From Alphaproteobacteria bacterium (lineage in GTDB: Bacteria; Pseudomonadota; Alphaproteobacteria; SP197), in NCBI GenBank assembly GCA_022823765.1, contig JAJEHK010000328.1, positions 1-41,441 of the forward strand: 41,441 nucleotides of DNA, in the 5' to 3' direction. A program made the position numbers and the translations under genes. The notes beneath the pieces are model-generated. The model was not told the origin of the DNA and made no database searches. It saw nothing but the letters and a program-made list of their open reading frames with translations. This document shows positions 4,336 to 16,810 of this stretch, piece after piece; the stretch's first letter is position 1, and the number at the start of each line of letters is the position of its first letter.

Positions 4336-5019
4336 TTATCCGTCACCGGATCCCCTGGATGGAGCGCCGGATGACGGACCGTGACTGAACACCCCGGCGG
4401 CGGGCTGGATGGCGAGGTCGAGCGCGGTCAGAAAGGTCCGGCCGATCAGTTCCAGCTTGCGCACCAGACCGATGCGTTCGGCGATCCCGGCCAGTTCGTC
4501 GGCGGACAGGACATGGCCGATCAGCCCGCAGCCGTCTGCCAGCGTGACGATCACGATATCCCTCGGCTCGGGAATCGTGTCGGTCAGGAGCACGTCCCGG
4601 ATTCGTCCGAACAGCTCGCGCTCGACACTTGCATCGGCGAGGGCATAGTGCCGTGTGCCGAATATCCTGAGGAAGCGGTCATCGCTGACATCGAGGATGC
4701 CGTTGTCGACCAGGCGCGCCAGTGCGGTTTCGCGAATTGCGTCGGCGTGGTGGGTCGCATGCTCCACCCAGTAGAGCGCGTCGCGGGTCTGGTCGGATTG
4801 CGCAATCTCGACGAGTATCGGATCAAGCAGGGGATCGCCAACCGGCGCCGCGTCGATGAGGAACAGCCGCTCGGCATCGGTGTCGATGCGATTCTCCAAT
4901 GCGAGGTCCATCAGGACTGCCCCGCCCAGCGCGTAGCGGACCAGCCATTCCGGGGCCCGCGACAGCGCCCCGTCCTCGTCGCGGAGCAGGAGAAGGAACT
5001 CCTCGGCGAGCCTCATCAT
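4336..5019 (-). CDS. GPP34 family protein (GOLPH3/Vps74-like)
   Basis: The product of 227 residues belongs to the GPP34 family, whose eukaryotic members are Golgi phosphoinositide-binding proteins. Family features include LAEEFLLLLRDEDG at the N-terminus, YALGGAVLMDLALENRI, LFLID followed by PVGDPLLDPIL, LVDNGIL, and a C-terminal TLADGCGL. It has no signal peptide or membrane helix, so it is predicted to be cytosolic or peripheral to the membrane. The start is the first of two ATGs (5019) overlapping the PiT stop as ATGATGA, so it is translationally coupled to the transporter. The bacterial function of this family is poorly defined; membrane-lipid recognition is an inference from eukaryotic homologues. 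Confidence 0.8.
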   Translation of the reverse strand: MMRLAEEFLLLLRDEDGALSRAPEWLVRYALGGAVLMDLALENRIDTDAERLFLIDAAPVGDPLLDPILVEIAQSDQTRDALYWVEHATHHADAIRETALARLVDNGILDVSDDRFLRIFGTRHYALADASVERELFGRIRDVLLTDTIPEPRDIVIVTLADGCGLIGHVLSADELAGIAERIGLVRKLELIGRTFLTALDLAIQPAAGVFSHGPSSGAPSRGSGDG

Positions 5020-6284
5020 CCGGCCCCCTGAAGGAATACCGCAGACAGGACGAAGTAGAACGCAACCGCGAGCGCCGCTCCGACGGGAAGCGTCACCACC
5101 CACGATACGAAGATGTTGCGGACCACGCCCAGGTCGAGGGCGCCCACCCCACGCGCGAGACCCACCCCCAGCACGGCGCCCACCAGAGTCTGGGTGGTCG
5201 ATACCGGAAGTCCCGTGCCGCTCGCCACGACGACCGTCGACGCTGCGGCAAACTCGGCGGCAAATCCGCGGCTCGGCGTGAGCTCGGTGATTCTCCTCCC
5301 GATGGTCGCCATGACCCGGTAACCGAATGTCGCCAGGCCGACCACGATTCCGGCTGCGCCGACCAGCAGCACCCAGACCGGAACCGCCGACTTGGCGGCG
5401 ACCCCTCCGGTCGACACCACGCCCACGATCGCCGCGACAGGCCCGATCGCGTTGGCGACGTCATTGGAGCCGTGCGCGAAGGCCATGCCCGACGCGGTCA
5501 CGATCATGAGGATGCCGAACACCTTCTCGACGTCGTTGAACCGCGATTGCCCCCCTGTGGGAGATTCGAGGCTCTGGAAGCGCAATCTGTTGATGACCAG
5601 TCGGAAGATGATGGCGACGATGCCGGCCAGGAGCACCGAATACAGGATCGCCATCGGCATGCTGAGATCCAGGCCGACATGCTTGAGGCCCTTGACGAAG
5701 GTCACGGTGGCGGTCACGAGCACAGCCGCGAAGACGTAGACGGGCACATACCTTCGGGCCTGGATGGCCGGATTGTCCTTGTCGAAGATCAGCCACTGCA
5801 CGCTCAGCACCAGGAGAAACGCGATCAGTCCGGCGATCACCGGGGTGACCACCCAGCTTGCCGCGATCGTTGCCACGTCCCACCAGTGGACGGCCTCGAT
5901 GCCGATTGCGACCACGGCGAACCCGATGATGGCTCCGACGATCGAGTGCGTGGTCGATACGGGCCAGCCGAACCTGGAGGCGACCGTCAGCCAGGCGGCA
6001 GCCGCCAGAAGCGCCGACAGCATGCCGACGACCAGCAGATCGGGATCGTGCTCGAGAGCCTCGGCGTCGATGATGCCCTTGCGGATCGTCGAGGTGACCT
6101 CTCCGCCGGCAAGAAAGGCCCCGAGGAACTCGAATGTTCCGGCGATCACGATGGCGCCGCCGACCGTGATCGCGCCTGAACCAACCGACGTTCCCATCGA
6201 GTTGGCCACGTCGTTGGCGCCGATCGCCCAGGCCATGTAGAGACCGGCGGCGATTGCCGCGATCAGGATGATGGTCAGGCTCAT
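5016..6284 (-). CDS. pit: PiT family inorganic phosphate transporter
   Basis: The product of 422 residues is a many-helix membrane protein that imports phosphate (or metal-phosphate) with a cation gradient. The two PiT signature repeats are present in inverted-topology halves: GANDVANS at residues 22-29 and AHGSNDVANAIGP at 270-282. The halves flank a hydrophilic central segment (about 236-252). I chose the ATG at 6284, which starts directly at the first helix; the frame is open 34 codons further but that stretch is polar and unlike the family. Its stop overlaps the GPP34 start. No clear Pho box was found upstream. Confidence 0.93.
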   Translation of the reverse strand: MSLTIILIAAIAAGLYMAWAIGANDVANSMGTSVGSGAITVGGAIVIAGTFEFLGAFLAGGEVTSTIRKGIIDAEALEHDPDLLVVGMLSALLAAAAWLTVASRFGWPVSTTHSIVGAIIGFAVVAIGIEAVHWWDVATIAASWVVTPVIAGLIAFLLVLSVQWLIFDKDNPAIQARRYVPVYVFAAVLVTATVTFVKGLKHVGLDLSMPMAILYSVLLAGIVAIIFRLVINRLRFQSLESPTGGQSRFNDVEKVFGILMIVTASGMAFAHGSNDVANAIGPVAAIVGVVSTGGVAAKSAVPVWVLLVGAAGIVVGLATFGYRVMATIGRRITELTPSRGFAAEFAAASTVVVASGTGLPVSTTQTLVGAVLGVGLARGVGALDLGVVRNIFVSWVVTLPVGAALAVAFYFVLSAVFLQGAG

Positions 6285-6634
6285 GTCCACGGAGTAAGGC
6301 TCCCGGCTCCATCGCCGTTCGGCATGGGCATTCCAACGCACATCCGGTTCGAGTTCAACGTGCGCTTGCGCAACAGGGAAACACACCTTGCGGTCATCGG
6401 TCCCGGTCAGTCAGCCGCCCGTGCGACCGTTTCCCGGAATTCCTGGACGGCGCCGGCTCCCTTCCTGGATCACCACGCGAGGTTCCTGCCGGAAACCGCG
6501 CACGTCGTCCGTGACGTGATGCGTCAACCGGAGCCTCGTTCGCCATGGCGCCTTGTGCCGCATGTCCGCCGACCCGGTTCCACGCAAGACCGGGTGCGTC
6601 CTGCGCGGGACCCTTGCCTCACGTCCCGGGGGTG
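6285..6634. other. Non-coding stretch between divergent pit and znuA-like genes
   Basis: No convincing gene is present here; open frames lack ribosome sites and family features. Two perfect stems are visible, ACCCGGT/ACCGGGT at 6572-6578 with 6589-6595, and GGGGTG/CACCCC at 6629-6634 with 6645-6650. They lie before the likely znuA promoter and may belong to the regulatory region. Confidence 0.4.
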
Positions 6635-6865: not shown

Positions 6866-7858
6866 ATGCAGAGTATCATGAACCTCTTGTATTCAGCGCG
6901 ATCGCTGACCGTGCGAAAGGGTCCGGTCGGTGCCGCCCTTTGCGGCCTTGCCTTCGTTTTCGTGCCCCATGCGCAGGCCACGGAAGTCATGGTGAGCATC
7001 AAGCCAGTCCATTCCCTCGTCTCCGGCGTGATGGGAGAGACCGGAGAACCCGGGCTGATGGTCACGGGCGCCGCGTCGCCCCATACCTACCAGATGCGCC
7101 CGTCCGAGGCACAGGCACTGAACTCGGCGGACCTCATAGTGTGGATCGGCGAGAACATGGAGATGTTTCTCGAGCGTCCCATCGAGAACCTCGGAGCCGA
7201 TGCCGAGGTCGTCACCCTGCACGAGGTGGCAAGGATGGAATTGCTGGAGACCCGCGAGGGCGGGCTGTGGCCCGACGAGCACGACGAGGACAAGGAAATG
7301 CACGTCGACGAGCATGACGATCACGGTCACGAGCACGGCGAGTTCGACATGCACATCTGGCTCGATCCGGGAAATGCCGGCCGGATTGTCGAAGTCTCCG
7401 CCGACGCGCTCAGTCGCACCGATCCTGACAATGCCGAGATCTATCGCGCCAACGCCGATGCGATGCTGGAGCGCATCGATGCGCTGGAATCGTCGCTCGT
7501 TGAGCAGCTTGAGCCGGTAAGGCAGCGTGCATTCGTCGTGTTCCACGACGGTTACCAGTATTTCGAACATGCATTCGGTCTCAACACCATCGGCGCCGTC
7601 GCCGTCGATCCGGGCCGCCCGCCCGGCACGAAGCGGATCGTCGAACTGCGCGCCGCCCTTGTCGAGCACGATGTCCAGTGCGTCTTCATCGAGCCCCAGT
7701 TTCCACCGGACCTTGTAGAGACCCTGATCGAGGGAACGGCCGTGCGGACCGCGGAACTCGACCCGATCGGTGTCGATTTCGAAGCCGGTCCGGACGCATG
7801 GTTCGAGACGATGCGCGCCATCGGCGACGCCATTGCCGGATGCGTGGGCGACCAGTGA
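6866..7858 (+). CDS. znuA: ZnuA-like metal ABC transporter substrate-binding protein
   Basis: The product of 330 residues captures zinc (or a similar divalent metal) in the periplasm for the ZnuB/ZnuC importer. A signal peptide ends near residue 38 (HAQATE). KPVHSL (46-51) and SPHTYQMRPSEAQ (71-83) carry metal-site histidines. The acidic/His-rich loop spans about 139-160 and is followed by DMHIWLDP (H163), FHDGYQYFE (H227) and late ELDPIG. These match E. coli ZnuA H60, H143 and H207. GGAG lies 7 nt before the ATG. The cognate ATPase and permease genes sit 6.7 kb downstream, past the permease-SPFH block. Zinc is the likeliest metal; cobalt or manganese cannot be excluded. Confidence 0.9.
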   Translation: MQSIMNLLYSARSLTVRKGPVGAALCGLAFVFVPHAQATEVMVSIKPVHSLVSGVMGETGEPGLMVTGAASPHTYQMRPSEAQALNSADLIVWIGENMEMFLERPIENLGADAEVVTLHEVARMELLETREGGLWPDEHDEDKEMHVDEHDDHGHEHGEFDMHIWLDPGNAGRIVEVSADALSRTDPDNAEIYRANADAMLERIDALESSLVEQLEPVRQRAFVVFHDGYQYFEHAFGLNTIGAVAVDPGRPPGTKRIVELRAALVEHDVQCVFIEPQFPPDLVETLIEGTAVRTAELDPIGVDFEAGPDAWFETMRAIGDAIAGCVGDQ

Positions 7859-7860
7859 AC

Positions 7861-7879
7861 CAGGTGGAGTGCACACCTG
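7861..7879 (+). other. Hairpin directly after the znuA-like gene
   Basis: CAGGTG (7861-7866) pairs perfectly with CACCTG (7874-7879) across a 7-nt loop, 3 nt after the znuA stop codon. There is no T run. It may protect the upstream message or reduce read-through into the next gene, which starts at 7996. The rest of this 137-bp gap shows nothing else. Confidence 0.35.
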
Positions 7880-7995
7880 ACATTCGACTTGCGGGAGGAT
7901 CACCTGCGGTCCCCAGAATTTGGTAGGGCTGCATCGACATCTCCAGTGCCATCGCATACCTTGTGGCACCGGGCCCCGCTGGATGAAGCGCTGTC

Positions 7996-10284
7996 ATGGA
8001 TCAACTGACGCTGTTCTTCGATTTCCTGTGGTCGTCGTTTCTCGTTCTGGCGCCCATGCTTCTCCTCGGCCTTTTCCTGGCCGGGCTGATCCATGTGTTC
8101 ATATCGCGTGAGGCCGTTCTGAAGTGGCTGAAGCAGGACAGCCTCAAGTCGGTCTCTTCCAGCGCGGCCATCGGTGTTCCCATGCCGCTCTGCAGTTGTT
8201 CGGTGGTGCCGGTCGTGGCCGAGATGCGCCGCAAGGGAGCGTCCCGATCGTCCTGCATGTCCTTCCTGATTACCGCTCCGGAGACCGGAGTGGACTCGAT
8301 TCTGGTCACCCAGGCGTTCTTCGGCTTCATTCCCGCAATCGTGAGACCCGTCGTCAGCTTCATCACGGGCGTGGTGGCGGGCATCTTCTGTATCGGGTTG
8401 ATCCGCGGTCGCGACTCGTTCGATGCGGTCGCGGAAGACGAGGACCATGATCTCCACGATCACGATCACGATCACGGTCACGGCCACTCCCACGGTCACG
8501 GTCACTCCCACAGCCATGAACCGCTTATTCCGGGTGCTGACGACTGCTATGTGAGCGGGCGCGAACTCAAGGGCTTCTTCCTGGTCTGGCTTCGCCGCCT
8601 CAGCGAGAACGTGGGGAGGATCCGGACCACGACATGGATCAAGCCGGAGTTCTACCGCGCGTACCTCGAGCCTGCCAGGGAGACGCCGTCCACGAGTTCC
8701 GAGTCGGAACGGAATCTTGGTGGCGTCACCTTCGCGACCGTCTGTCGACACATCCTGCGTTACGGCTTCGTCGACGTCGCCGACGATATCCTGTTCGCCC
8801 TGCTGGTGGGTGTCGCGCTCGGCGGCGTCATCTATCTTGCGATACCCAGCGACCTCATGGCTTACGAGTACGCGCGCTGGATCTCGTATCCCGTCATGGT
8901 CCTGGTGGGTATCCCGCTCTATATCTGCGCCTCCGCCAGCACGCCGATCGCGGCGGCCCTGGTCGCCAAGGGATTCAGTCCCGGCGCGGCGCTCATCTTC
9001 CTGATGACCGGTCCTGCCACCAACACCGGGACGATCGCCATCATCGTGAGCCAGTTCGGCGCGCGCTTTGCCTCCGTCTACGTCGGCTCCGTGGTGGCCG
9101 TGACGATGGTTCTGGGCATCGCCATCGATCTCCTCATGATCGCATTCGGGCTCTCGCTTGCCGTCAACCTGGACGCTTCCGACTCACCGGCGATCATGAT
9201 CGTCCAGTGGGGCGGCGCCATCGGGCTCATCGCGCTCATCATCTGGCGGTTCCGTGCCGGAGCGTTGAAGAGCGGATACCACGATCTGCTTTCGAACATG
9301 CGCCCGGTTTCCGTGCCGTTCAAGGCATGGTGGTCCCGCGTGACCCGCAGTGCATCGGTGACGGGGACCATCAACCCGCGCACGCCGGCCGGAAGGGCCG
9401 TCTGGCTGGCACTCGTCGCCGCATTCCTGCTGAGCGGTTTCACGGTCGTGAAGCCCGGCGAAGTCGGCTACGGACGCCTTTTCGGCGCGGTCGTGTGGAA
9501 GGACCTGCCGCCGGGCCTGCACTACCTTGCGCCCAGCCCCTTCGTCAGCGCCGACAAGTGGCCGGTCAGCGAAGTGAAATCCGTCAACAGCGGAGGCAGC
9601 TACGAGTACCTCACCGGCGATGTCAATCTCATGTCCATGTCGGTGAACGTGCAGTACCGGGTCAGCGATCCCTACTCCTATCACTATCGGACCGCGAACC
9701 CTGAACAGGCCATCGTCGACAATGTGCGCAAGGAACTCCGCAAGTTCGTGGCCGGGCGGTCCCTGGACGACCTGCTGAACGTCGAACGCGCGGCCCTGCA
9801 AACCCACATTGAAGATGTCTTCGAGGATCGTGTTCCGGGCGGCGACAACGAAGTGCTCGACACCATCGAACTCGTCAAGGTGAACCTGCTTTCCGCGAAG
9901 CCCATCGATGCAACGATGAGCGCCTTCAGGGAGGTCTCGAGCTCCCAGGACGACAGGGAACGCATCATCGTCAATGCCCAGCGCCTGCTGGTCATGGTGA
10001 TACCCCGGGCGCATGGCAATGCGGCCTACGAACTCGAGCAGGCCAAAGGGGAAGCGGCAAGGAGGACGATCACCTCCGGGGCGGAGAGCGAAGCCATTCG
10101 CCTGATCGCCGGCGTGGTTCGCCTGACACCCGAAGTCCTTCGCAACATGCTCTGGAGGGAGAAGCTGGAGGTCTCTCTCGCCGGCAGGAGCAAGATCATC
10201 GTCCCGAGCGAGGAAACCCTGAACAGGGTAGCCTTGTGGAAATCATCGAACGGCGGCGCCATGCCCATGGCGCCCCACCACTGA
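7996..10284 (+). CDS. SO_0444/ArsP-type metal permease fused to HflK-like SPFH (band 7) domain
   Basis: The product has 762 residues and two parts. Residues 1-415 form a permease of the ArsP_1/DUF318 fold, closest to SO_0444-type Cu/Zn efflux proteins. It has PMPLCSCSVVPV (63-73), a His/Asp-rich cytoplasmic loop (151-174), a second core motif CASASTPIAAA (311-321) and TGPATNTGT (338-346). Residues about 465-482 are another membrane helix, followed by a full HflK-like SPFH domain (about 483-700: VVKPGEVGYGRLFG, LPPGLHYLAP, NVQYRVSDP) and a C-terminal tail rich in charged residues. Permeases of this family usually stop near 400-450 residues. The frame is continuous with no sign of a fused assembly error. 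I infer metal transport organised on a membrane scaffold. Confidence 0.88.
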   Translation: MDQLTLFFDFLWSSFLVLAPMLLLGLFLAGLIHVFISREAVLKWLKQDSLKSVSSSAAIGVPMPLCSCSVVPVVAEMRRKGASRSSCMSFLITAPETGVDSILVTQAFFGFIPAIVRPVVSFITGVVAGIFCIGLIRGRDSFDAVAEDEDHDLHDHDHDHGHGHSHGHGHSHSHEPLIPGADDCYVSGRELKGFFLVWLRRLSENVGRIRTTTWIKPEFYRAYLEPARETPSTSSESERNLGGVTFATVCRHILRYGFVDVADDILFALLVGVALGGVIYLAIPSDLMAYEYARWISYPVMVLVGIPLYICASASTPIAAALVAKGFSPGAALIFLMTGPATNTGTIAIIVSQFGARFASVYVGSVVAVTMVLGIAIDLLMIAFGLSLAVNLDASDSPAIMIVQWGGAIGLIALIIWRFRAGALKSGYHDLLSNMRPVSVPFKAWWSRVTRSASVTGTINPRTPAGRAVWLALVAAFLLSGFTVVKPGEVGYGRLFGAVVWKDLPPGLHYLAPSPFVSADKWPVSEVKSVNSGGSYEYLTGDVNLMSMSVNVQYRVSDPYSYHYRTANPEQAIVDNVRKELRKFVAGRSLDDLLNVERAALQTHIEDVFEDRVPGGDNEVLDTIELVKVNLLSAKPIDATMSAFREVSSSQDDRERIIVNAQRLLVMVIPRAHGNAAYELEQAKGEAARRTITSGAESEAIRLIAGVVRLTPEVLRNMLWREKLEVSLAGRSKIIVPSEETLNRVALWKSSNGGAMPMAPHH
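8446..8517 (+). repeat. His/Asp/Gly codon repeat inside the permease loop
   Basis: Short tandem GATCAC and GGTCAC/CCACTC units encode a run of alternating His with Asp, Gly and Ser, residues 151-174 of the permease-SPFH fusion. Such loops bind divalent metals such as zinc, copper, nickel or cobalt. The repetitive DNA could vary in length by slippage. Confidence 0.8.
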
Positions 10285-10294
10285 GACGATCACC

Positions 10295-10320
10295 CGGGCG
10301 CCTCCGTGGAGACGCGCCCG
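10295..10320 (+). other. Strong intercistronic hairpin between permease-SPFH and HflC-like genes
   Basis: CGGGCGC (10295-10301) pairs with GCGCCCG (10314-10320), extended inside by CTC/GAG with a 4-nt loop and a 2-nt bulge. It starts 11 nt after the permease stop, and the next gene's AGGAG follows about 12 nt later. With no T run it looks like an mRNA-processing or stability element, not a full terminator. Confidence 0.45.
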
Positions 10321-10345
10321 CTACCGGAGCCGTAGGAGACTCGCC

Positions 10346-11245
10346 ATGACCAGAGGCAAACGGATTGCAGCCGTCATCGCAGTCCTGCTACTCGCCATCC
10401 TTGCCTGGGACAGCATCTACACCATTGATGAATCGCAGCAGGGCGTCCTCACCAATTTCGGCAAGATTGCAGCACCGGTGAAGGAACCGGGCCTGCATTT
10501 CAAGTTCCCCTGGCCCGTCTCGAAGGTCTACAAGGTTGACCGGCGCATCCATCCGCTCACGAACCTCAGTCAGGAGCTCATTACCGAGGACCAGAAGAAC
10601 GTCCTGGTCGACGGCTACCTGTTGTGGCGCGTCACGGACCCGATTCGCTACGTGGAATCGATCAGAACCGAGGCCAGGGCCGTCGAGCGGCTCAGCGATC
10701 TCTATCGATCAAGCGCCGGAATCGTGGTCAGCAACAAGCCCCGTGAAGTGTTCGTGAGCCTCGGCCTGGAACATCGGGACGTCTCCCTGATCTCCGGCGA
10801 GGTCCTTGATCTCGTCAAGCCGATTGCCGGGGACTATGGCATAGACGTCATGAAGATCGGCATCGTCGAGTACACCCTGCCGGCGGAAAACCGTCCCAGT
10901 GTCATTCAGCGGATGATCTCCGAACGCGCCCGAATTGCCGCACGTTACCGCAGCGAGGGAGAGGAAGCGGCCATACGCATCGAGGCCTATGCCATCCACG
11001 AGCACGAAAAGCTCATGGCCACCGCCCATGCCGAAGCCACCACCATTCTCGGAGAAGCCGAAGCCGAGGCGATGACCACGCTGGCCGCCGCGTACAGTGA
11101 AGACCCTGAATTCTACAAGTTCATCCGGGCACTCGACAGCTACGATGCGATCATCGACAAGAACACGACGCTGATACTCCCCGCCGACAGCGAACTGTTC
11201 AGGTATCTTGACGGCGACGGGATGTTGCCACCGGCACCGGAGTAG
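10346..11245 (+). CDS. HflC-like SPFH/band 7 membrane protein
   Basis: The product of 299 residues has one N-terminal membrane helix (about 7-22), an SPFH domain beginning ESQQGVLTNFGKI, and the HflC-type PGLHFKFPW. The closing pattern EDPEFYKFIRALDSYD followed by SELFRYL is a close match to the C-terminal part of E. coli HflC, with an Ala/Glu-rich coiled coil before it. HflC normally pairs with HflK in a dome around the FtsH protease. Here the partners are an HflK-like protein 12 bp downstream and the SPFH part of the permease fusion upstream; no ftsH is present. AGGAG precedes the ATG. A separate housekeeping hflKC may exist elsewhere. Confidence 0.88.
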   Translation: MTRGKRIAAVIAVLLLAILAWDSIYTIDESQQGVLTNFGKIAAPVKEPGLHFKFPWPVSKVYKVDRRIHPLTNLSQELITEDQKNVLVDGYLLWRVTDPIRYVESIRTEARAVERLSDLYRSSAGIVVSNKPREVFVSLGLEHRDVSLISGEVLDLVKPIAGDYGIDVMKIGIVEYTLPAENRPSVIQRMISERARIAARYRSEGEEAAIRIEAYAIHEHEKLMATAHAEATTILGEAEAEAMTTLAAAYSEDPEFYKFIRALDSYDAIIDKNTTLILPADSELFRYLDGDGMLPPAPE

Positions 11246-11257
11246 CGGTTCGAACTC

Positions 11258-12646
11258 ATGTCTGACACCTCTGCCGAACAACTCCCCTGGAGCACGCGCC
11301 TCATCTACTCAAGCTTTGACTGGGTGCGTGAACGCCGTCTGCTTCTGTCCCTGTCACTCGTGATCCTTGTTGTGTTCGTCGTGCTGGCCAACGGCCTCTA
11401 CGTCGTGAAAAAGGAGGAGCAGGCGGTCGTCACGCGTTTCGGCAAGGTGGTGGAGACCGACGTCCAGCCCGGCCTTCACTACGTGTTCCCGCTGATTGAA
11501 CAGGCCCACGTGCGGAAAGTCATGCGCGTGACCCGGCGAAACGTGGCAACTCAGGATGCGGACGGTAATGTCTATTTTTCGATCCTTTCGGGCGACACCA
11601 ACCTCTTCGAGGTGGATGTGGCGCTGCAGTACAGGATCGGGAATCTGAGGAACTATCTCTACGCGACTGCCGACCCGCATGCTGTGCTCGCTCTCGTCGT
11701 GCGCGAACGCCTGGTCGGCAACATGAGCAACAGCTTCATCGATCTCATATTCACCAACAACCGCGACATCATTCAAAGGCGTCTGTTCGAGGAAACCGAG
11801 GACTTTCTGGACGCCAACGACATCGGCGTCGAGTTGCTGGCGCTCAATATCGTGGGCCTGCGCCCCATCGATGAAACCGTGGCCGCTTTCCGCGATGTGA
11901 GCGATGCCATCGCCGAGAGCATCGAGACCGTGAGCGAGGCCAACAAGCGGGCGGAACGGCTCCTGGCCCGCAGCAGGGGCCAGGCTGAAGCAGTGGTGCT
12001 GAACGCCCGGGCCAGGGCGAGAGAACGCCGGGTGCAGTCCGCGAGCAGCGCGCAGGCCTTTCTGGACCTGCTGGACGCCTATCGAAACGAGCCCTCCTCG
12101 GTATCCACGACACGCTACTGGCAGAGAATGCGTGAAGTCTTCCGGGAGGCGACCCTGGCAAAGGTCAATCCGGACGACACCTCGACCATCGACATCAACA
12201 TGATCGAGAGTTTCGTGCCTGGTGTTGGCAAATTGCCCGCCGTGACCGCAGCCGCTGCGGCGCCCCTGGGGAGCATCGCCGGCGCCGCGTCCTCGATCAC
12301 GCTCGCAAGCGAGAGAGGAGCACACGGTCTCGAGGCGGTGCAGTCGGATCGTTTCCTCCTGGACGGACGGTTCCATTCTCCCATGAGCGAGCGCCATCAT
12401 CTTGGCGCTGCCGAACTGCGTTCCCTGATCTTCGACGATCTTTCCATCTTCTCTCATCGCCATGTCGCACCGACACCTGTCTGGACTGCGGTGGAGCAGA
12501 CCGAACAGCCGATGGTCGAGTCGACGGTCATCGACACGAGCGAAGAGGTCCAGAAGGGGCGGGAAACCTCGACGGCGACGACAACCGACTCATCGGAAGG
12601 GCAACACGCGTCGGCAGAAGAGAAACAAGATGGCGGCAACCATTAG
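11258..12646 (+). CDS. HflK-like SPFH/band 7 membrane protein with long C-terminal extension
   Basis: The product of 462 residues has a membrane helix at about 28-48, then an SPFH domain (KKEEQAVVTRFGKV, VQPGLHYVFP, VALQYRIGN) and a charged coiled coil. TRYWQRMREVF and an ending near DTSTIDINMIESF match the HflK family. Beyond about residue 320 there are roughly 140 extra residues with Ala-rich, then His- and Glu/Thr-rich low-complexity sequence, not seen in classic HflK (about 420 residues). It starts 12 bp after the HflC-like gene, so the two are probably co-translated as partners. Its end overlaps the next gene by 17 bp. The role of the tail is unknown. Confidence 0.85.
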   Translation: MSDTSAEQLPWSTRLIYSSFDWVRERRLLLSLSLVILVVFVVLANGLYVVKKEEQAVVTRFGKVVETDVQPGLHYVFPLIEQAHVRKVMRVTRRNVATQDADGNVYFSILSGDTNLFEVDVALQYRIGNLRNYLYATADPHAVLALVVRERLVGNMSNSFIDLIFTNNRDIIQRRLFEETEDFLDANDIGVELLALNIVGLRPIDETVAAFRDVSDAIAESIETVSEANKRAERLLARSRGQAEAVVLNARARARERRVQSASSAQAFLDLLDAYRNEPSSVSTTRYWQRMREVFREATLAKVNPDDTSTIDINMIESFVPGVGKLPAVTAAAAAPLGSIAGAASSITLASERGAHGLEAVQSDRFLLDGRFHSPMSERHHLGAAELRSLIFDDLSIFSHRHVAPTPVWTAVEQTEQPMVESTVIDTSEEVQKGRETSTATTTDSSEGQHASAEEKQDGGNH

Positions 12647-13811
12647 CCGTGTTGCCGCCCTCTTCATTGTGCTGACGGCGAGAGCCGCCTTCGACGCGTC
12701 GGCAGCGGCGCCGGGCGTCACCGAGAACTCCATCGTCTTCGGACAGAGCGGTTGCTTCAGCGGCTCCTGCGGGTATGCGGGCAACCAGTACCGCGGTGGC
12801 ATACTGACCGCGTTCCATGAATCCAACAGCGCCGGCGGCATCAACGGCAGGCAACTGGTACTCCTGGCGCTGGACGACGGCTACGATCCGGACCGGGCGG
12901 CAGCCAACGCGGACAGGTTCGTCGCCGACGACGAAGTGTTTGCCGTCGTGGGCGGTGTCGGCACGCCGACGACGGAACGCATGGCATCTATCTTCAGGGA
13001 GGAGATGATCCCCTTCGTCGGCCACCTCACGGGGGCCGAGTTCCTGAGAGAAGTCCGCAGGTATCCCAACGTGGTGAACCTGCGCGCCGGGTATTCCGAG
13101 GAAACAAGGCGCCTGGTCGAGCACTTCGTCGAGAACCTGAATGCCCGCCGGTTCGGTATCATTCATCAGGACGACTCGTTCGGTCGCACCGTGATCACCA
13201 GCTACGAGGATGCCTTGAGAGCCTTCGATCTCTCGATCCTTGCCAAGGCGGCCTATTCGCGGCACTCCCACGCCGTGCACTCGACCGTGTTCGTCATGGA
13301 AAAGGCGGATCTGGACGTCGTGTTGCTGGCCACGACTCTCGGGCCGGCCGCCGAGGTGATCAACACGTCGCGATCCCTTGGCAACGACTATGCCTTCGGC
13401 CTCCTGTCCTTTGTGGACACCGGGCTCCTCGAGGCATCGCTGGACTTCTCGGACGAACGGATCTTCCTGACCAGAGTCATCCCGGACTTCGCCAACGAGA
13501 GCAACGCGTTGGTGAGACGTTTCCGTCTCGCCCTCGACGACTACCGGAACACCGATCCGGAGGTCGTGGAGGATGTCGTGAGCCTGTTCAGCCTGGAAGG
13601 CTACATCGTGGGTCGATTCATCGTCGAAGTTCTCAAGCGCATGCCGAACGAAATGAGTCGGGAGGTCTTTCTGACAACGGCACTGTCGCGGGATCCCGTC
13701 CATATCGACGACTGGGTCATCGCCTTCGACGAGGGCAGCAATGCCGGTTCGGACTACGTGCGAATCGTCGATCTTTCCGGCTACTATTCTGAAAGGGAGG
13801 CCGCCGAGTGA
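12630..13811 (+). CDS. Periplasmic binding protein, type 1 (Leu/Ile/Val-like, Peripla_BP_6)
   Basis: The product of 393 residues has an N-terminal signal peptide (to about residue 26, SAAAPG) and a branched-chain amino acid receptor fold: NSIVFGQSGCFSG, GGINGRQLVLLALDDGYDP, VFAVVGGVGTPTT and a second lobe with SLFSLEGYIVGRF. Proteins of this type normally feed LivHMGF or act as ligand sensors, but no such transporter genes are nearby. No lipobox is visible. I chose the ATG at 12630, which places the signal peptide at the N-terminus; the frame is open farther upstream inside the HflK-like gene. Its stop overlaps the next start (GTGA). The ligand is unknown. Confidence 0.82.
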   Translation: MAATISRVAALFIVLTARAAFDASAAAPGVTENSIVFGQSGCFSGSCGYAGNQYRGGILTAFHESNSAGGINGRQLVLLALDDGYDPDRAAANADRFVADDEVFAVVGGVGTPTTERMASIFREEMIPFVGHLTGAEFLREVRRYPNVVNLRAGYSEETRRLVEHFVENLNARRFGIIHQDDSFGRTVITSYEDALRAFDLSILAKAAYSRHSHAVHSTVFVMEKADLDVVLLATTLGPAAEVINTSRSLGNDYAFGLLSFVDTGLLEASLDFSDERIFLTRVIPDFANESNALVRRFRLALDDYRNTDPEVVEDVVSLFSLEGYIVGRFIVEVLKRMPNEMSREVFLTTALSRDPVHIDDWVIAFDEGSNAGSDYVRIVDLSGYYSEREAAE

Positions 13812-14296
13812 AGAAACTCCATGACTTTTCCCTTGAAGAGACCGGCCAGGAGTGGCTCCGGGAGGGATACAAGGTCGTTGCGATGCGCCGCAACGTCATG
13901 TTCCGGATGCTCCTCGAGTCGGTTCGTCTTCTCCTCTTCGGCAATGCCGGAGGCGCTGCCCTCATTATCGGTTTCATGAGCGCCACCACGGGTGAGAACG
14001 AGGGGGCCTTCCACTGGTTTGCGCTTGCGACGGTGCTGGTCTTCGGTCTGGGCACGCTGACATCGGCGCTGAGCATGATTCTCGTCACCCTGGTTTCCAT
14101 CAAGGAGGCACACGGTGCCGAAACCGCCCTGAAACGTTTCGCCGACGGCGACGACAACAATTTCCAGGTCATGTTCAATATCGAAGGCCAGACCTGGCGC
14201 CTTGCCGACTGGAGCACGCTCACCGGTATCGTCAGCGCCGCTACCTTCATCGTGGGCGGATTGGCCGGTGTCGCGCTGCTGGTGGTGTTCTTCTGA
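13808..14296 (+). CDS. Small three-helix membrane protein, function unknown
   Basis: The product of 162 residues was not recognised as a known family. It has a charged N-terminus of about 35 residues, three hydrophobic segments (about 46-58, 68-97 and 137-161), and a polar loop between helices 2 and 3 (about 98-135) containing GADDN-like acidic residues and EGQTWRLADW. The GTG start overlaps the stop of the periplasmic binding protein gene, so the two are translationally coupled and likely act together, for example as a receptor and membrane anchor. That role is inferred from coupling alone. The gene ends in a hairpin at 14295-14314. Confidence 0.7.
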   Translation: MKKLHDFSLEETGQEWLREGYKVVAMRRNVMFRMLLESVRLLLFGNAGGAALIIGFMSATTGENEGAFHWFALATVLVFGLGTLTSALSMILVTLVSIKEAHGAETALKRFADGDDNNFQVMFNIEGQTWRLADWSTLTGIVSAATFIVGGLAGVALLVVFF

Positions 14297-14314
14297 AGAC
14301 CTCCACCGGTCTTC
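14295..14314 (+). terminator. Terminator-like hairpin after the three-helix protein gene
   Basis: GAAGACC (14295-14301) pairs perfectly with GGTCTTC (14308-14314) over a 6-nt loop. It begins within the stop codon of the preceding gene, and no T run follows. It marks the end of the SPFH part of the cluster before the 261-bp gap to znuC. Confidence 0.4.
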
Positions 14315-14476
14315 CGATTCGGATGCATGCCGCACCCGATCAGCCCAAGACTGGAAGCGTTGCGGCATTCTCCCCGACCGCAGCTTCGGATGGCTTTCCC
14401 GAGCATGAGTCCGGCCCGGCGCGCCGTGTCCTGATGGAGACGAACTGGCCGGTTCGGCAGTCTCCGATCGGGTCAT

Positions 14477-14490
14477 CCCCTCGGGAGGGG
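14477..14490 (+). other. Palindrome over the putative leader ribosome site before znuC
   Basis: CCCCTCGGGAGGGG can fold as a 5-bp stem with a CGGG loop. Its right arm, GGGAGGGG, is also the only strong ribosome-binding-like sequence ahead of znuC, and sits before an ATG at 14497. It could act as a switch on translation or as an operator. Confidence 0.35.
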
Positions 14491-14496
14491 CCACCA

Positions 14497-14568
14497 ATGA
14501 ACGAAGTAGCAGGTCCTGTCGGGCCGCGGAATCCACCTGGCTCCGGGTGCGCGAACGATGGCCGGTGA
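14497..14568 (+). CDS. Possible 23-residue leader peptide overlapping znuC
   Basis: An ATG 6 nt after GGGAGGGG opens a 23-codon frame rich in Gly and Pro that ends in TGA 8 nt inside znuC. The znuC start itself has only a weak ribosome site, so translation may be coupled through this small frame. There is no family match, and it may be chance. Confidence 0.25.
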   Translation: MNEVAGPVGPRNPPGSGCANDGR

Positions 14569-15361
14569 CGTCTCACGGACACGACCGCTGATCGAGGCGC
14601 GGGGCGTAAGCGTGAATTTCGGGCGGCGCAATGTGCTGGACAAGGTGGACATTGCCGTCCATGCCGGGGAAATCGTGACCCTGGTCGGTCTCAACGGTGC
14701 GGGCAAGTCAACGCTGATACGCGTGTTGTTCGGTATCGTCCGTCCCGACCTCGGCACGGTCGCGCGAACCCCGGGACTGCGCATCGGCTATTCGCCCCAG
14801 CACGTACACCGCGATCCGATTCTTCCGATGACCGTCCGCGGATTCCTCACTCTGGGCGCGCCGGCGCCACGTGACAGACTCGAGAACGTGCTCTCTGAAG
14901 TCGGCGCCGGCGCGATTCTCAACCACCCCCTGTCCGAAGTTTCAGGTGGAGAGCTTCATCGCGTGCTTCTTGCGCGAGCCCTGTTGCGCGAGCCCGGCCT
15001 GCTCGTGCTCGACGAACCGCTTGCGGGAGTCGATGTTGCCAGCCAGGGCGAACTCTACCAGTTGATCGCGACCATTCGGGACCGCTATGGCTGCGGTGTG
15101 CTTCTCGTCTCGCACGATCTGCACATGGTCATGGCCGCAACGGACACCGTGGTATGCCTCAACCGGCATGTGTGCTGCACCGGCCATCCGAGAACGATCA
15201 CGCGCCACCCGGAATTCGTCTCCCTGTTCGGACCGCATGTGGCGAACGCGATTGCGGTCTACCCGCACCGGCACGACCATCGCCATGACGAGCATGGCAA
15301 TCCGGTGCCGATCGATGGCGACGGTCCGACAGGGCCTGACACGTTCGGCGGACGGCGATGA
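14558..15361 (+). CDS. znuC: ZnuC-like metal ABC transporter ATP-binding protein
   Basis: The product of 267 residues energises the zinc importer. It has Walker A GLNGAGKST, a Q-loop in GYSPQH, the signature VSGGELHRV, Walker B LLVLDEPLAGVD and the switch His in SHDLHMV. The C-terminal tail is His-rich (YPHRHDHRHDEHG), typical of zinc ATPases and possibly a metal sensor. Its stop overlaps the znuB start (ATGA). It is separated by 261 bp from the SPFH block, so it may have its own promoter, though none is obvious. Confidence 0.93.
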   Translation: MAGDVSRTRPLIEARGVSVNFGRRNVLDKVDIAVHAGEIVTLVGLNGAGKSTLIRVLFGIVRPDLGTVARTPGLRIGYSPQHVHRDPILPMTVRGFLTLGAPAPRDRLENVLSEVGAGAILNHPLSEVSGGELHRVLLARALLREPGLLVLDEPLAGVDVASQGELYQLIATIRDRYGCGVLLVSHDLHMVMAATDTVVCLNRHVCCTGHPRTITRHPEFVSLFGPHVANAIAVYPHRHDHRHDEHGNPVPIDGDGPTGPDTFGGRR

Positions 15362-16164
15362 CGGAAGATTTCGTTCTGCGCGCGCTCGCGGGCGGAATCG
15401 GCGCGGCGCTCGCGGCGGGCCCCGTCGGCTGCTTTGTCATCTGGAGACGCATGGCCTACTTCGGCACGGCGCTTGCCCATGCGGTGCTTCTCGGAATCGC
15501 TCTGGGCTTTCTCCTGGAACTGGAGCCGTTCGCCGGGGTCTTCGCCATGTGCTTCATCCTCGCGGGATGCCTGATTCTTCTGGAACGCCAGCGTCTCGTT
15601 TCTCTCGACGCCCTGCTCGGGGTGCTGGCCCACGCGGTGTTCGCGGCGGGCCTCGTCGTCATCGCGTTCATGGAACGCCTGAGGGTCGACCTTGTCGGCT
15701 ACCTCTTCGGCGACATCCTCTCCGTCGGCGCGGTCGACCTGTGGCTCATCTACACCACCGCGGCCGTTTCGATAGCCGCGCTTGTCTGGCAGTGGCGCAA
15801 CCTTCTCTCCGTGACCGTCAACCGGGACCTCGCCGCAGTGGAGGGAGTGCCCGTGGAACGCGTGCGGTTCCTGCTCCTGCTCCTGCTCGCCGGAGTGATC
15901 GCGGTGGGGATGAAGATCGTCGGAATGCTTCTCGTCGTGGCGCTGGTGATCATTCCCGCCGCCGCTGCGCGCCGCGTGTCGGCAACACCCGAACAGATGG
16001 CCGTTGCATCATCGATCATCGGAATCGTCGCGGTCGTCGCTGGTCTCTTCGGTTCGCTGGAGTGGGACGTTCCGGCCGGGCCGGCCATCGTGCTCGTCGC
16101 AAGCCTGGCCTTCGCCGCGAGCCTGCTCATCCCGAGCCGCAGCCGGCAGGGCCGCGAAGACTGA
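15358..16164 (+). CDS. znuB: ZnuB-like metal ABC transporter permease
   Basis: The product of 268 residues is a hydrophobic ABC-3 family inner-membrane protein forming the metal channel. It shows the family start with GPVGCFVIWRRMAYFG, then LAHAVLLGIALG, DILSV, VEGVPVERVRF, and the coupling region MKIVGMLLVVALVIIPAAAA. Seven to eight helices are apparent. It pairs with the overlapping znuC and presumably with the znuA-like protein at 6866-7858. It is followed 121 bp later by sodC on the same strand. Confidence 0.93.
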   Translation: MTEDFVLRALAGGIGAALAAGPVGCFVIWRRMAYFGTALAHAVLLGIALGFLLELEPFAGVFAMCFILAGCLILLERQRLVSLDALLGVLAHAVFAAGLVVIAFMERLRVDLVGYLFGDILSVGAVDLWLIYTTAAVSIAALVWQWRNLLSVTVNRDLAAVEGVPVERVRFLLLLLLAGVIAVGMKIVGMLLVVALVIIPAAAARRVSATPEQMAVASSIIGIVAVVAGLFGSLEWDVPAGPAIVLVASLAFAASLLIPSRSRQGRED

Positions 16165-16222
16165 TTCCCGGAACGCCCGTTGCAGGCGGCGGCCGTCCCG
16201 TCCGTTCCCCGGCGAACGTTCC

Positions 16223-16251
16223 TTGCCGGATGGTGACGGACAGGGCATAAC
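16223..16251 (+). promoter_or_regulatory. Candidate sodC promoter
   Basis: TTGCCG (16223-16228) and CATAAC (16246-16251) are 17 bp apart in the 121-bp gap before sodC. The -10 match is moderate. Confidence 0.3.
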
Positions 16252-16285
16252 CGGTCGGAACTGTCATCTTCGGGACATCAGGATC

Positions 16286-16810
16286 ATGGACATGAAGCTG
16301 CTTCACCGGGCGATCGGCGCCCTCGTCTTTCTGATCATCGCCTCTGGCGCCTCGGCGGCCGACATGGCCTCAGCACGAATCATCAATGCAGACGGGCTGG
16401 AGGTTGGCAGCGTGACATTCCAGCAGGCTCCCACCGGCGTGTTGGTGTCGGTTGACGTCACGGGATTGCCACCTGGCGGCCATGGTATTCATCTCCATGG
16501 CGTCGGATCCTGCTCCCCCGACTTCAAGGCGTCCGGAGGCCACATCAATCCTGAAGGCGTCCCGCACGGCCTGCTCAATCCCGGGGGCGGCGACAATGGC
16601 GACCTGCCCAATCTCTATGCGGCGGCGGATGGTTCCGCACGGGCCGAGTTCTTCACCACGCGCGTGTCGCTGAAAGGCGGCGATCTGCCCGCGCTGCTCG
16701 ACACGGACGGTTCGGCTGTCATCATCCACGCCAGCCCGGATGACCACATGTCTCAGCCTATCGGCGGCTCCGGCGGGCGTATTGCTTGCGGCTTGATCGA
16801 AGGCATGTAG
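16286..16810 (+). CDS. sodC: Periplasmic Cu/Zn superoxide dismutase with altered zinc site
   Basis: The product of 174 residues converts superoxide to oxygen and peroxide in the periplasm. A signal peptide ends near residue 24 (ASGASA-AD). Copper ligands are H69 and H71 (GIHLHG), H86 (GGHINP, the bridging His) and H148 (IIHAS). The disulfide cysteines are C76 and C168, and the active-site Arg is R165. Zinc ligands H94 and D106 are present, but the third zinc His of the family is D103 here (GGGDNGDLP where others have a His). I took the ATG at 16286, with AGGA ahead and the signal peptide at the N-terminus. It sits downstream of the zinc transporter genes, which could supply its metal. Confidence 0.92.
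   Translation: MDMKLLHRAIGALVFLIIASGASAADMASARIINADGLEVGSVTFQQAPTGVLVSVDVTGLPPGGHGIHLHGVGSCSPDFKASGGHINPEGVPHGLLNPGGGDNGDLPNLYAAADGSARAEFFTTRVSLKGGDLPALLDTDGSAVIIHASPDDHMSQPIGGSGGRIACGLIEGM

Follow-up and report, generated by a model that had tools for sequence, protein, structure and literature searches.

A conserved five-gene cassette built around a permease–SPFH fusion lies beside zinc importers in bacteria of about ten phyla

The window analysed here, a 41,441-nt stretch to whose positions our coordinates refer unless another locus is named, contains a conserved unit of five genes (7996–14296) headed by a fusion of an SO_0444-type Cu/Zn permease with an HflK-like SPFH domain. The same five genes occur in the same order in 58 loci, and a zinc importer lies beside 50 of them, which strongly supports the earlier proposal that the SPFH block has a common, zinc-related function. 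We interpret the unit as a homeostasis cassette for zinc (or divalent metals), in which an SPFH dome would surround an exporter, opposite an importer, and buffer or partition zinc; this interpretation is held with about even confidence.

The sequence-only reading had described nine plus-strand genes at 6866–16810. Pfam and NCBIfam profile scores confirmed that all nine exist and carry the domains named for them (Table 1), but the conserved unit is limited to five. The GTGA overlap reported within the SPFH block was located at 13808–13811, between the receptor gene and the gene for the 162-aa protein; the spfh3 and receptor genes overlap by 17 bases, and znuC and znuB are joined by an ATGA overlap. 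For each znu gene the corresponding equivalog was the best model, with scores narrowly under the cut-off (ZnuA 239/268, ZnuC 297.6/306 and ZnuB 276.9/284 bits). In the window the SPFH block does separate znuA from znuCB, as described: ZnuA, an ABC ATPase and an ABC-3 permease are all encoded at one locus that the cassette splits. This arrangement is confined to the genus (the window, L083 and L116). The suggested role of SodC and oxidative stress is unsupported because almost all loci lack SodC; among the 58, sodC was matched in the window and L083 alone.

Directly upstream of znuA, on the minus strand (4336–6386) and outside the nine-gene row, lie genes for a PHO4-family permease and a GPP34 protein. 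The true start of the GPP34 gene is probably at MMRLAEE, and this gene overlaps the end of the PHO4 gene. Homologues of PHO4 and GPP34 are found beside many cassettes that have ABC-type zinc importers. PHO4 or Na/Pi transporters are near 26 loci, mostly those of the ABC type, and two members of the PHO4 homologue cluster (L085 and L125) match PF01384. At L110, a GPP34-like segment shares one frame with P450-like sequence.

Table 1. Genes of the cassette locus and its flanks in the window, and CDF–SPFH fusions at two other loci.
Feature	Position	Strand	Profile score or remark
GPP34 (GOLPH3-like) protein	4336..5103 (ORF limits)	-	PF05719 129.3 bits
PHO4-family (phosphate or sulfate type) permease	5016..6386	-	homologues clustered from 15 sources, the window among them
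znuA, zinc ABC importer receptor with His/Asp-rich loop (context gene)	6866..7858	+	PF01297 226.9 bits
Core gene 1, SO_0444-type Cu/Zn permease + HflK-like SPFH fusion	7996..10284	+	ArsP_1 154, NF033936 321.7, Band_7 41.4 bits
Core gene 2, hflC2, HflC-like SPFH protein	10346..11245	+	TIGR01932 171.9 bits (cut-off 134.4)
Core gene 3, spfh3, HflK-like SPFH protein with conserved C-terminal extension	11258..12646	+	Band_7 50 bits
Core gene 4, periplasmic type-I receptor (Peripla_BP_6), no own ABC transporter	12630..13811	+	PF13458 149.6 bits
Core gene 5, 162-aa membrane protein of an undescribed family	13808..14296	+	no Pfam or NCBIfam match
znuC, zinc importer ABC ATPase (context gene)	14558..15361	+	ZnuC equivalog 297.6 bits
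znuB, zinc importer permease (context gene)	15358..16164	+	PF00950 231 bits
sodC, Cu,Zn superoxide dismutase (neighbour outside the conserved unit)	16286..16810	+	PF00080 134.9 bits
CDF exporter + HflK-like SPFH fusion, Aquibium oceanicum plasmid	L156, 7287..8834		heads an HflK–HflC–HflK trio; annotated only as HflK
CDF exporter + HflK-like SPFH fusion, genome G1134	L193, 9099..10724		heads an HflK–HflC–HflK trio

The fusion protein comprises 762 residues, with the permease spanning about residues 1–420, followed by one transmembrane helix and the HflK-like SPFH domain (residues about 468–740). The permease matches the SO_0444 family model NF033936 over residues 12–416, above the cut-off of 300 bits, and retains the CSC motif and the CAS-type motif of the second half, which are common to fused and stand-alone SO_0444 permeases. 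Because these motifs are kept, the fused permease looks functional. A His-rich loop (about residues 149–175 in the window) is situated between the two permease halves; it is present in all intact fusions, with a median of 13 histidines, whereas it was found in 0 of 30 stand-alone permeases, which also have no SPFH domain. At five loci of the Nitrospinota type (L119, L120, L122, L125 and L129) the fusion has about 130 additional C-terminal residues; this addition is of low complexity, rich in G, K, H and E, and expected to be periplasmic.

The SPFH part of the fusion was confidently modelled by AlphaFold, and its best Foldseek match was HflK, the best fold matches being HflKC–FtsH structures. 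In a profile comparison it matched E. coli HflK (7vhp, E 2.3e-26), and the score against the HflK equivalog TIGR01933 is 119.8 bits (cut-off 159.4). The permease half was modelled poorly (mean pLDDT 57.9) and is unreliable; hence, our topology relies on charge distribution and on homology to HflK. Given the positive charges that precede the last transmembrane helix, the loop before this helix is predicted to be cytosolic, the SPFH domain periplasmic, as in HflK, and the His-rich loop cytosolic. Long HflK open frames encountered elsewhere (531–891 aa) were dismissed as further fusions; each is a canonical HflK preceded by a spurious frame.

The two genes that follow encode further SPFH proteins. 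The hflC2 product scores above the cut-off of the HflC equivalog, whereas the spfh3 product scores 129.8 bits against the HflK model, under its cut-off of 159.4. Outside the HflK-matching part, the C-terminal extension of spfh3 carries a conserved motif at about residues 364–405 (12347–12475) with H, ER, RSLIFD and SIFSHRH elements, possibly a docking or metal site. The fourth gene encodes a protein with the Peripla_BP_6 fold of LivJ-type receptors, most closely related among solved structures to 4kv7 (E 2.3e-63) and 3lop; the cassette contains no LivFGHM-type genes. The 162-aa protein forms a new family: neither the window copy nor any of 39 homologues gave a significant Pfam match, and its model of three long helices (pLDDT 78) had no significant match in the PDB.

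The SPFH proteins share their fold, the HflC/HflK pairing and the expected periplasmic topology with the HflK/HflC–FtsH system. They differ from it in forming separate clades, in being three, and in that one of them carries a transporter. A reading built on this likeness is that the cassette encodes an HflKC-type regulator of FtsH that acts in zinc transporter turnover, with the fused permease as a decoy or sensor. It would agree with the HflC equivalog score, with the HflKC–FtsH fold matches, and with a genome that has one FtsH (contig C115) and a separate canonical HflK/HflC pair (contig C211). On the other hand, the block contains no FtsH gene, in agreement with the sequence-only reading, and a permease that keeps the motifs of its stand-alone counterparts, including CSC, looks functional. 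We consider this reading highly unlikely.

An alignment of three fusions, scanned against 84,980 species genomes, returned the 58 distinct loci; because the scan depended on two peptide patterns, WIKPEFY and NMLWREK, relatives without both would have been missed. Nearly all loci encode full-length fusions, with 56–92% identity. Wherever the contig reaches and is intact, the order is fusion, hflC2, spfh3, receptor and 162-aa protein, so that three consecutive HflK-, HflC- and HflK-like genes occur in the cassette loci as in the window. The genes are tightly spaced, with 4-base overlaps common at several junctions, and the genomes sampled have one copy each. L124 and L136 are disrupted. In-frame stops in the best-match frame were observed at L096, L097, L120 (spfh3) and L136 (receptor), and may represent assembly errors or decay.

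The loci belong to metagenome-assembled genomes (MAGs) of about ten phyla, with labels of Alpha- and Gammaproteobacteria, Latescibacterota, Bryobacterales/Terriglobia, Gemmatimonadota, Dadabacteria, Nitrospinota, Binatia, Deltaproteobacteria and Opitutia. The distribution is patchy. The fusion was found in one of 398 Pseudomonadota genomes, the window's own, whereas about a tenth contain a stand-alone SO_0444 permease; within the window's genus, 3 of 10 genomes have the fusion. Around a Gemmatimonadota bearer the pattern is all-or-none: the 162-aa protein scored about 280 bits in 16 of 194 genomes, and nearly all others gave nothing. Cassette proteins were not found beside stand-alone SO_0444 copies in the regions examined; in G415, a Band_7 gene adjoins a stand-alone permease on the opposite strand. 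In the fusion tree most phyla are grouped once or a few times, with 10 label changes against a minimum of 8, which fits few transfers followed by vertical descent. The patchy distribution and the high identity across phyla lead us to infer that horizontal transfer carried the cassette from phylum to phylum long ago and that inheritance within lineages has since prevailed. No copy was found in plasmid, phage or viral collections, and carriage on such elements was rejected.

The zinc importer within the fetched flank is of the ABC (ZnuA) type at 26 of the 58 loci and a ZIP transporter at 24, and no locus has both. The eight loci with neither are mostly truncated contigs or disrupted loci. Assuming two importer loci per 4.5-Mb genome, chance would account for about 0.9% per locus, so pairing by chance is negligible. 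Neighbourhood comparison did not bear out a tie to znu specifically: since 24 loci have a ZIP transporter and no znu genes, the constraint is "a zinc importer" and not "znu". The importers vary in sequence, strand and position (znuB is 29–96% identical to that of the window, and the L126 importer is AztB-like), and from this variation the association of cassette and importer probably arose several times. A ZnuD-like TonB receptor adjoins the cassette at four or more gammaproteobacterial loci; for the four tested, the best model was ZnuD, under the strict cut-off. In the Dadabacteria loci L117, L118 and L121, a ZnuA-like receptor, an ABC-3 permease, a Na/Pi cotransporter and CzcCBA all lie within 10 kb of the cassette; a Dadabacteria bearer has a small genome of 1.8 Mb.

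The cassette neighbours are mostly importers but include exporters as well: CzcA-family RND pumps are near 24 of the 58 loci and P-type ATPases near some. Together with the efflux character of the SO_0444 and CDF families, these neighbours would suit metal detoxification, in which an exporter on an SPFH scaffold clusters the efflux machinery and the importers are chance or regulon neighbours. We regard detoxification as distinctly unlikely, because exactly one importer type near 50 loci is far beyond chance and because the related trio of Pseudomonas aeruginosa, described below, responds to zinc shortage and not to excess.

A role of the fused permease's family in Zn/Cu tolerance is known only for Shewanella, where SO_0444 is required for growth under Zn or Cu stress (PMC3219624). 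A second exporter family is joined to SPFH proteins in the same manner. On a plasmid of Aquibium oceanicum (NZ_CP018172) and in a gammaproteobacterial genome (G1134), a CDF exporter is fused to an HflK-like domain (PF01545 + PF01145), and the fusion is followed by an HflC-like and then an HflK-like gene, as in the cassette. These trios differ in the fused domain, which is CDF (PF01545) and not SO_0444, and no receptor or 162-aa protein was recognised in them; the Aquibium cluster includes a PPIase, a His-rich P-type ATPase, PCu(A)C and SCO. The CDF–SPFH fusion was rejected as a common gene, with no full-length match in 385 genomes of the class and 398 of the phylum. The HflC members of the CDF trios and hflC2 form their own clade, apart from canonical HflC (support 99/96), and HflK members were not resolved. 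As judged from this tree, the cassette trio is orthologous, through the HflC clade, to the CDF trios.

A further parallel is the P. aeruginosa trio PA2439–2437 (HflK/HflC/HflK-like; PaFlo5–7), which lies in the hmtA cluster PA2434–PA2439 (PMC13086221). The trio rises 9–14-fold with hmtA in a znuA mutant or under zinc depletion (PMC4542158), its promoter is bound by Zur in EMSA (PMC8531726), and its proteins are raised under zinc depletion (PMC11761036); its deletion in strain PA14 had mild effects (PMC13086221). Like the cassette, it is a three-SPFH operon that adjoins a zinc transporter and has a patchy, probably horizontally spread distribution, with a Zur link to zinc starvation (PMC4542158, PMC8531726, PMC13086221). 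Unlike the cassette, it has no permease fusion in that description, a P-type ATPase takes the place of ZnuABC or ZIP, and neither a receptor nor a 162-aa partner is mentioned; the likeness is drawn from this published description. Upstream of the fusion start at L086 (about −222) and L093 (about −193) we identified near-perfect Zur-type palindromes, TGTTATTTTATAACA and TTTTATAATATAACA, each matching the box at 13 of 14 positions. Weaker Zur-like palindromes occur at other alphaproteobacterial loci. The window itself yielded no Zur-like box, and the score averaged over all loci equals that of shuffled sequence.

In a different reading the cassette would serve auxiliary zinc acquisition, with the permease transporting inward or passing its substrate to the importer, the receptor capturing a zinc–ligand complex, and the SPFH cage acting as a scaffold or shield for the importer in zinc starvation. 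The importer neighbours (ABC, ZIP, ZnuD) at 50 loci and the Zur-bound, zinc-depletion-induced trio beside the importer HmtA would fit such a role, and the set of one binding protein and two membrane proteins, one small and one large, is reminiscent of secondary transporters that depend on a binding protein. It conflicts with the origin of the fused domain in an efflux family (PMC3219624), with the efflux character of the alternative CDF domain, and with the CzcA pumps. We consider acquisition somewhat unlikely. Direction is nevertheless the strongest doubt on the reading of an exporter under an SPFH dome, because the neighbours and the P. aeruginosa regulon suggest acquisition, while both fused domains come from efflux families; an exporter induced by zinc starvation would be odd, and outward transport by the fused permease is presumed from family members only.

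In the homeostasis reading that we prefer, the three SPFH domains would co-assemble into a periplasmic HflK/HflC-like dome covering the part of the membrane in which the permease sits. Zinc would be collected or sensed by the His-rich loop, which is probably on the cytosolic side, and moved outward under the dome by the permease; ZnuABC or the ZIP importer would bring zinc in. When zinc is scarce, such an exporter–importer pair could buffer it or divide it between cytosol and periplasm. A small ligand would probably be sensed by the receptor and the 162-aa protein, which would gate the complex. The membrane compartment that the sequence-only reading had envisaged is plausible from the homology to HflK/HflC; that the cassette balances zinc uptake and release, as also suggested there, would follow from this model, as would zinc regulation. 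A stronger version, which we judge unlikely, is a true metal compartment: a closed periplasmic SPFH cage with an exporter (SO_0444 or CDF) in its wall, gated by the receptor and the 162-aa protein, and transferred among symbionts of many phyla. If so, envelope proteins may be metallated inside it, or zinc stored for re-import.

Seven loci belong to sponge symbionts by published record (PMC5649159, PMC8941161): four originate from Aplysina aerophoba (L092 bin65, L095 bin129, L116 bin56 and L125 bin107; PMC5649159) and three from Petrosia ficiformis specimens 277c/287ce (L091, L102 and L105; PMC8941161). The MAGs named RHO, CO and APA appear to match the sponges of PMC8163846. Sponge association is likely for many of the 58 loci. 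The Plut bins are presumably coral-derived.

The permease–SPFH fusion and the 162-aa family are new, and the spread is wide and patchy; zinc-linked HflK/HflC trios are known but barely studied. Bacterial SPFH proteins, which are poorly understood, thereby gain a concrete client, as metal transporters of two unrelated families are fused to them, and the cassette offers a reason for the HflK/HflC trio within the P. aeruginosa zinc-starvation regulon. Enclosure of transporters by SPFH domes thereby becomes testable. A five-gene trait shared by about ten phyla, whose bearers are largely host-associated, hints that zinc is contested inside sponges and points to a new organisation of zinc transport in the cell envelope.
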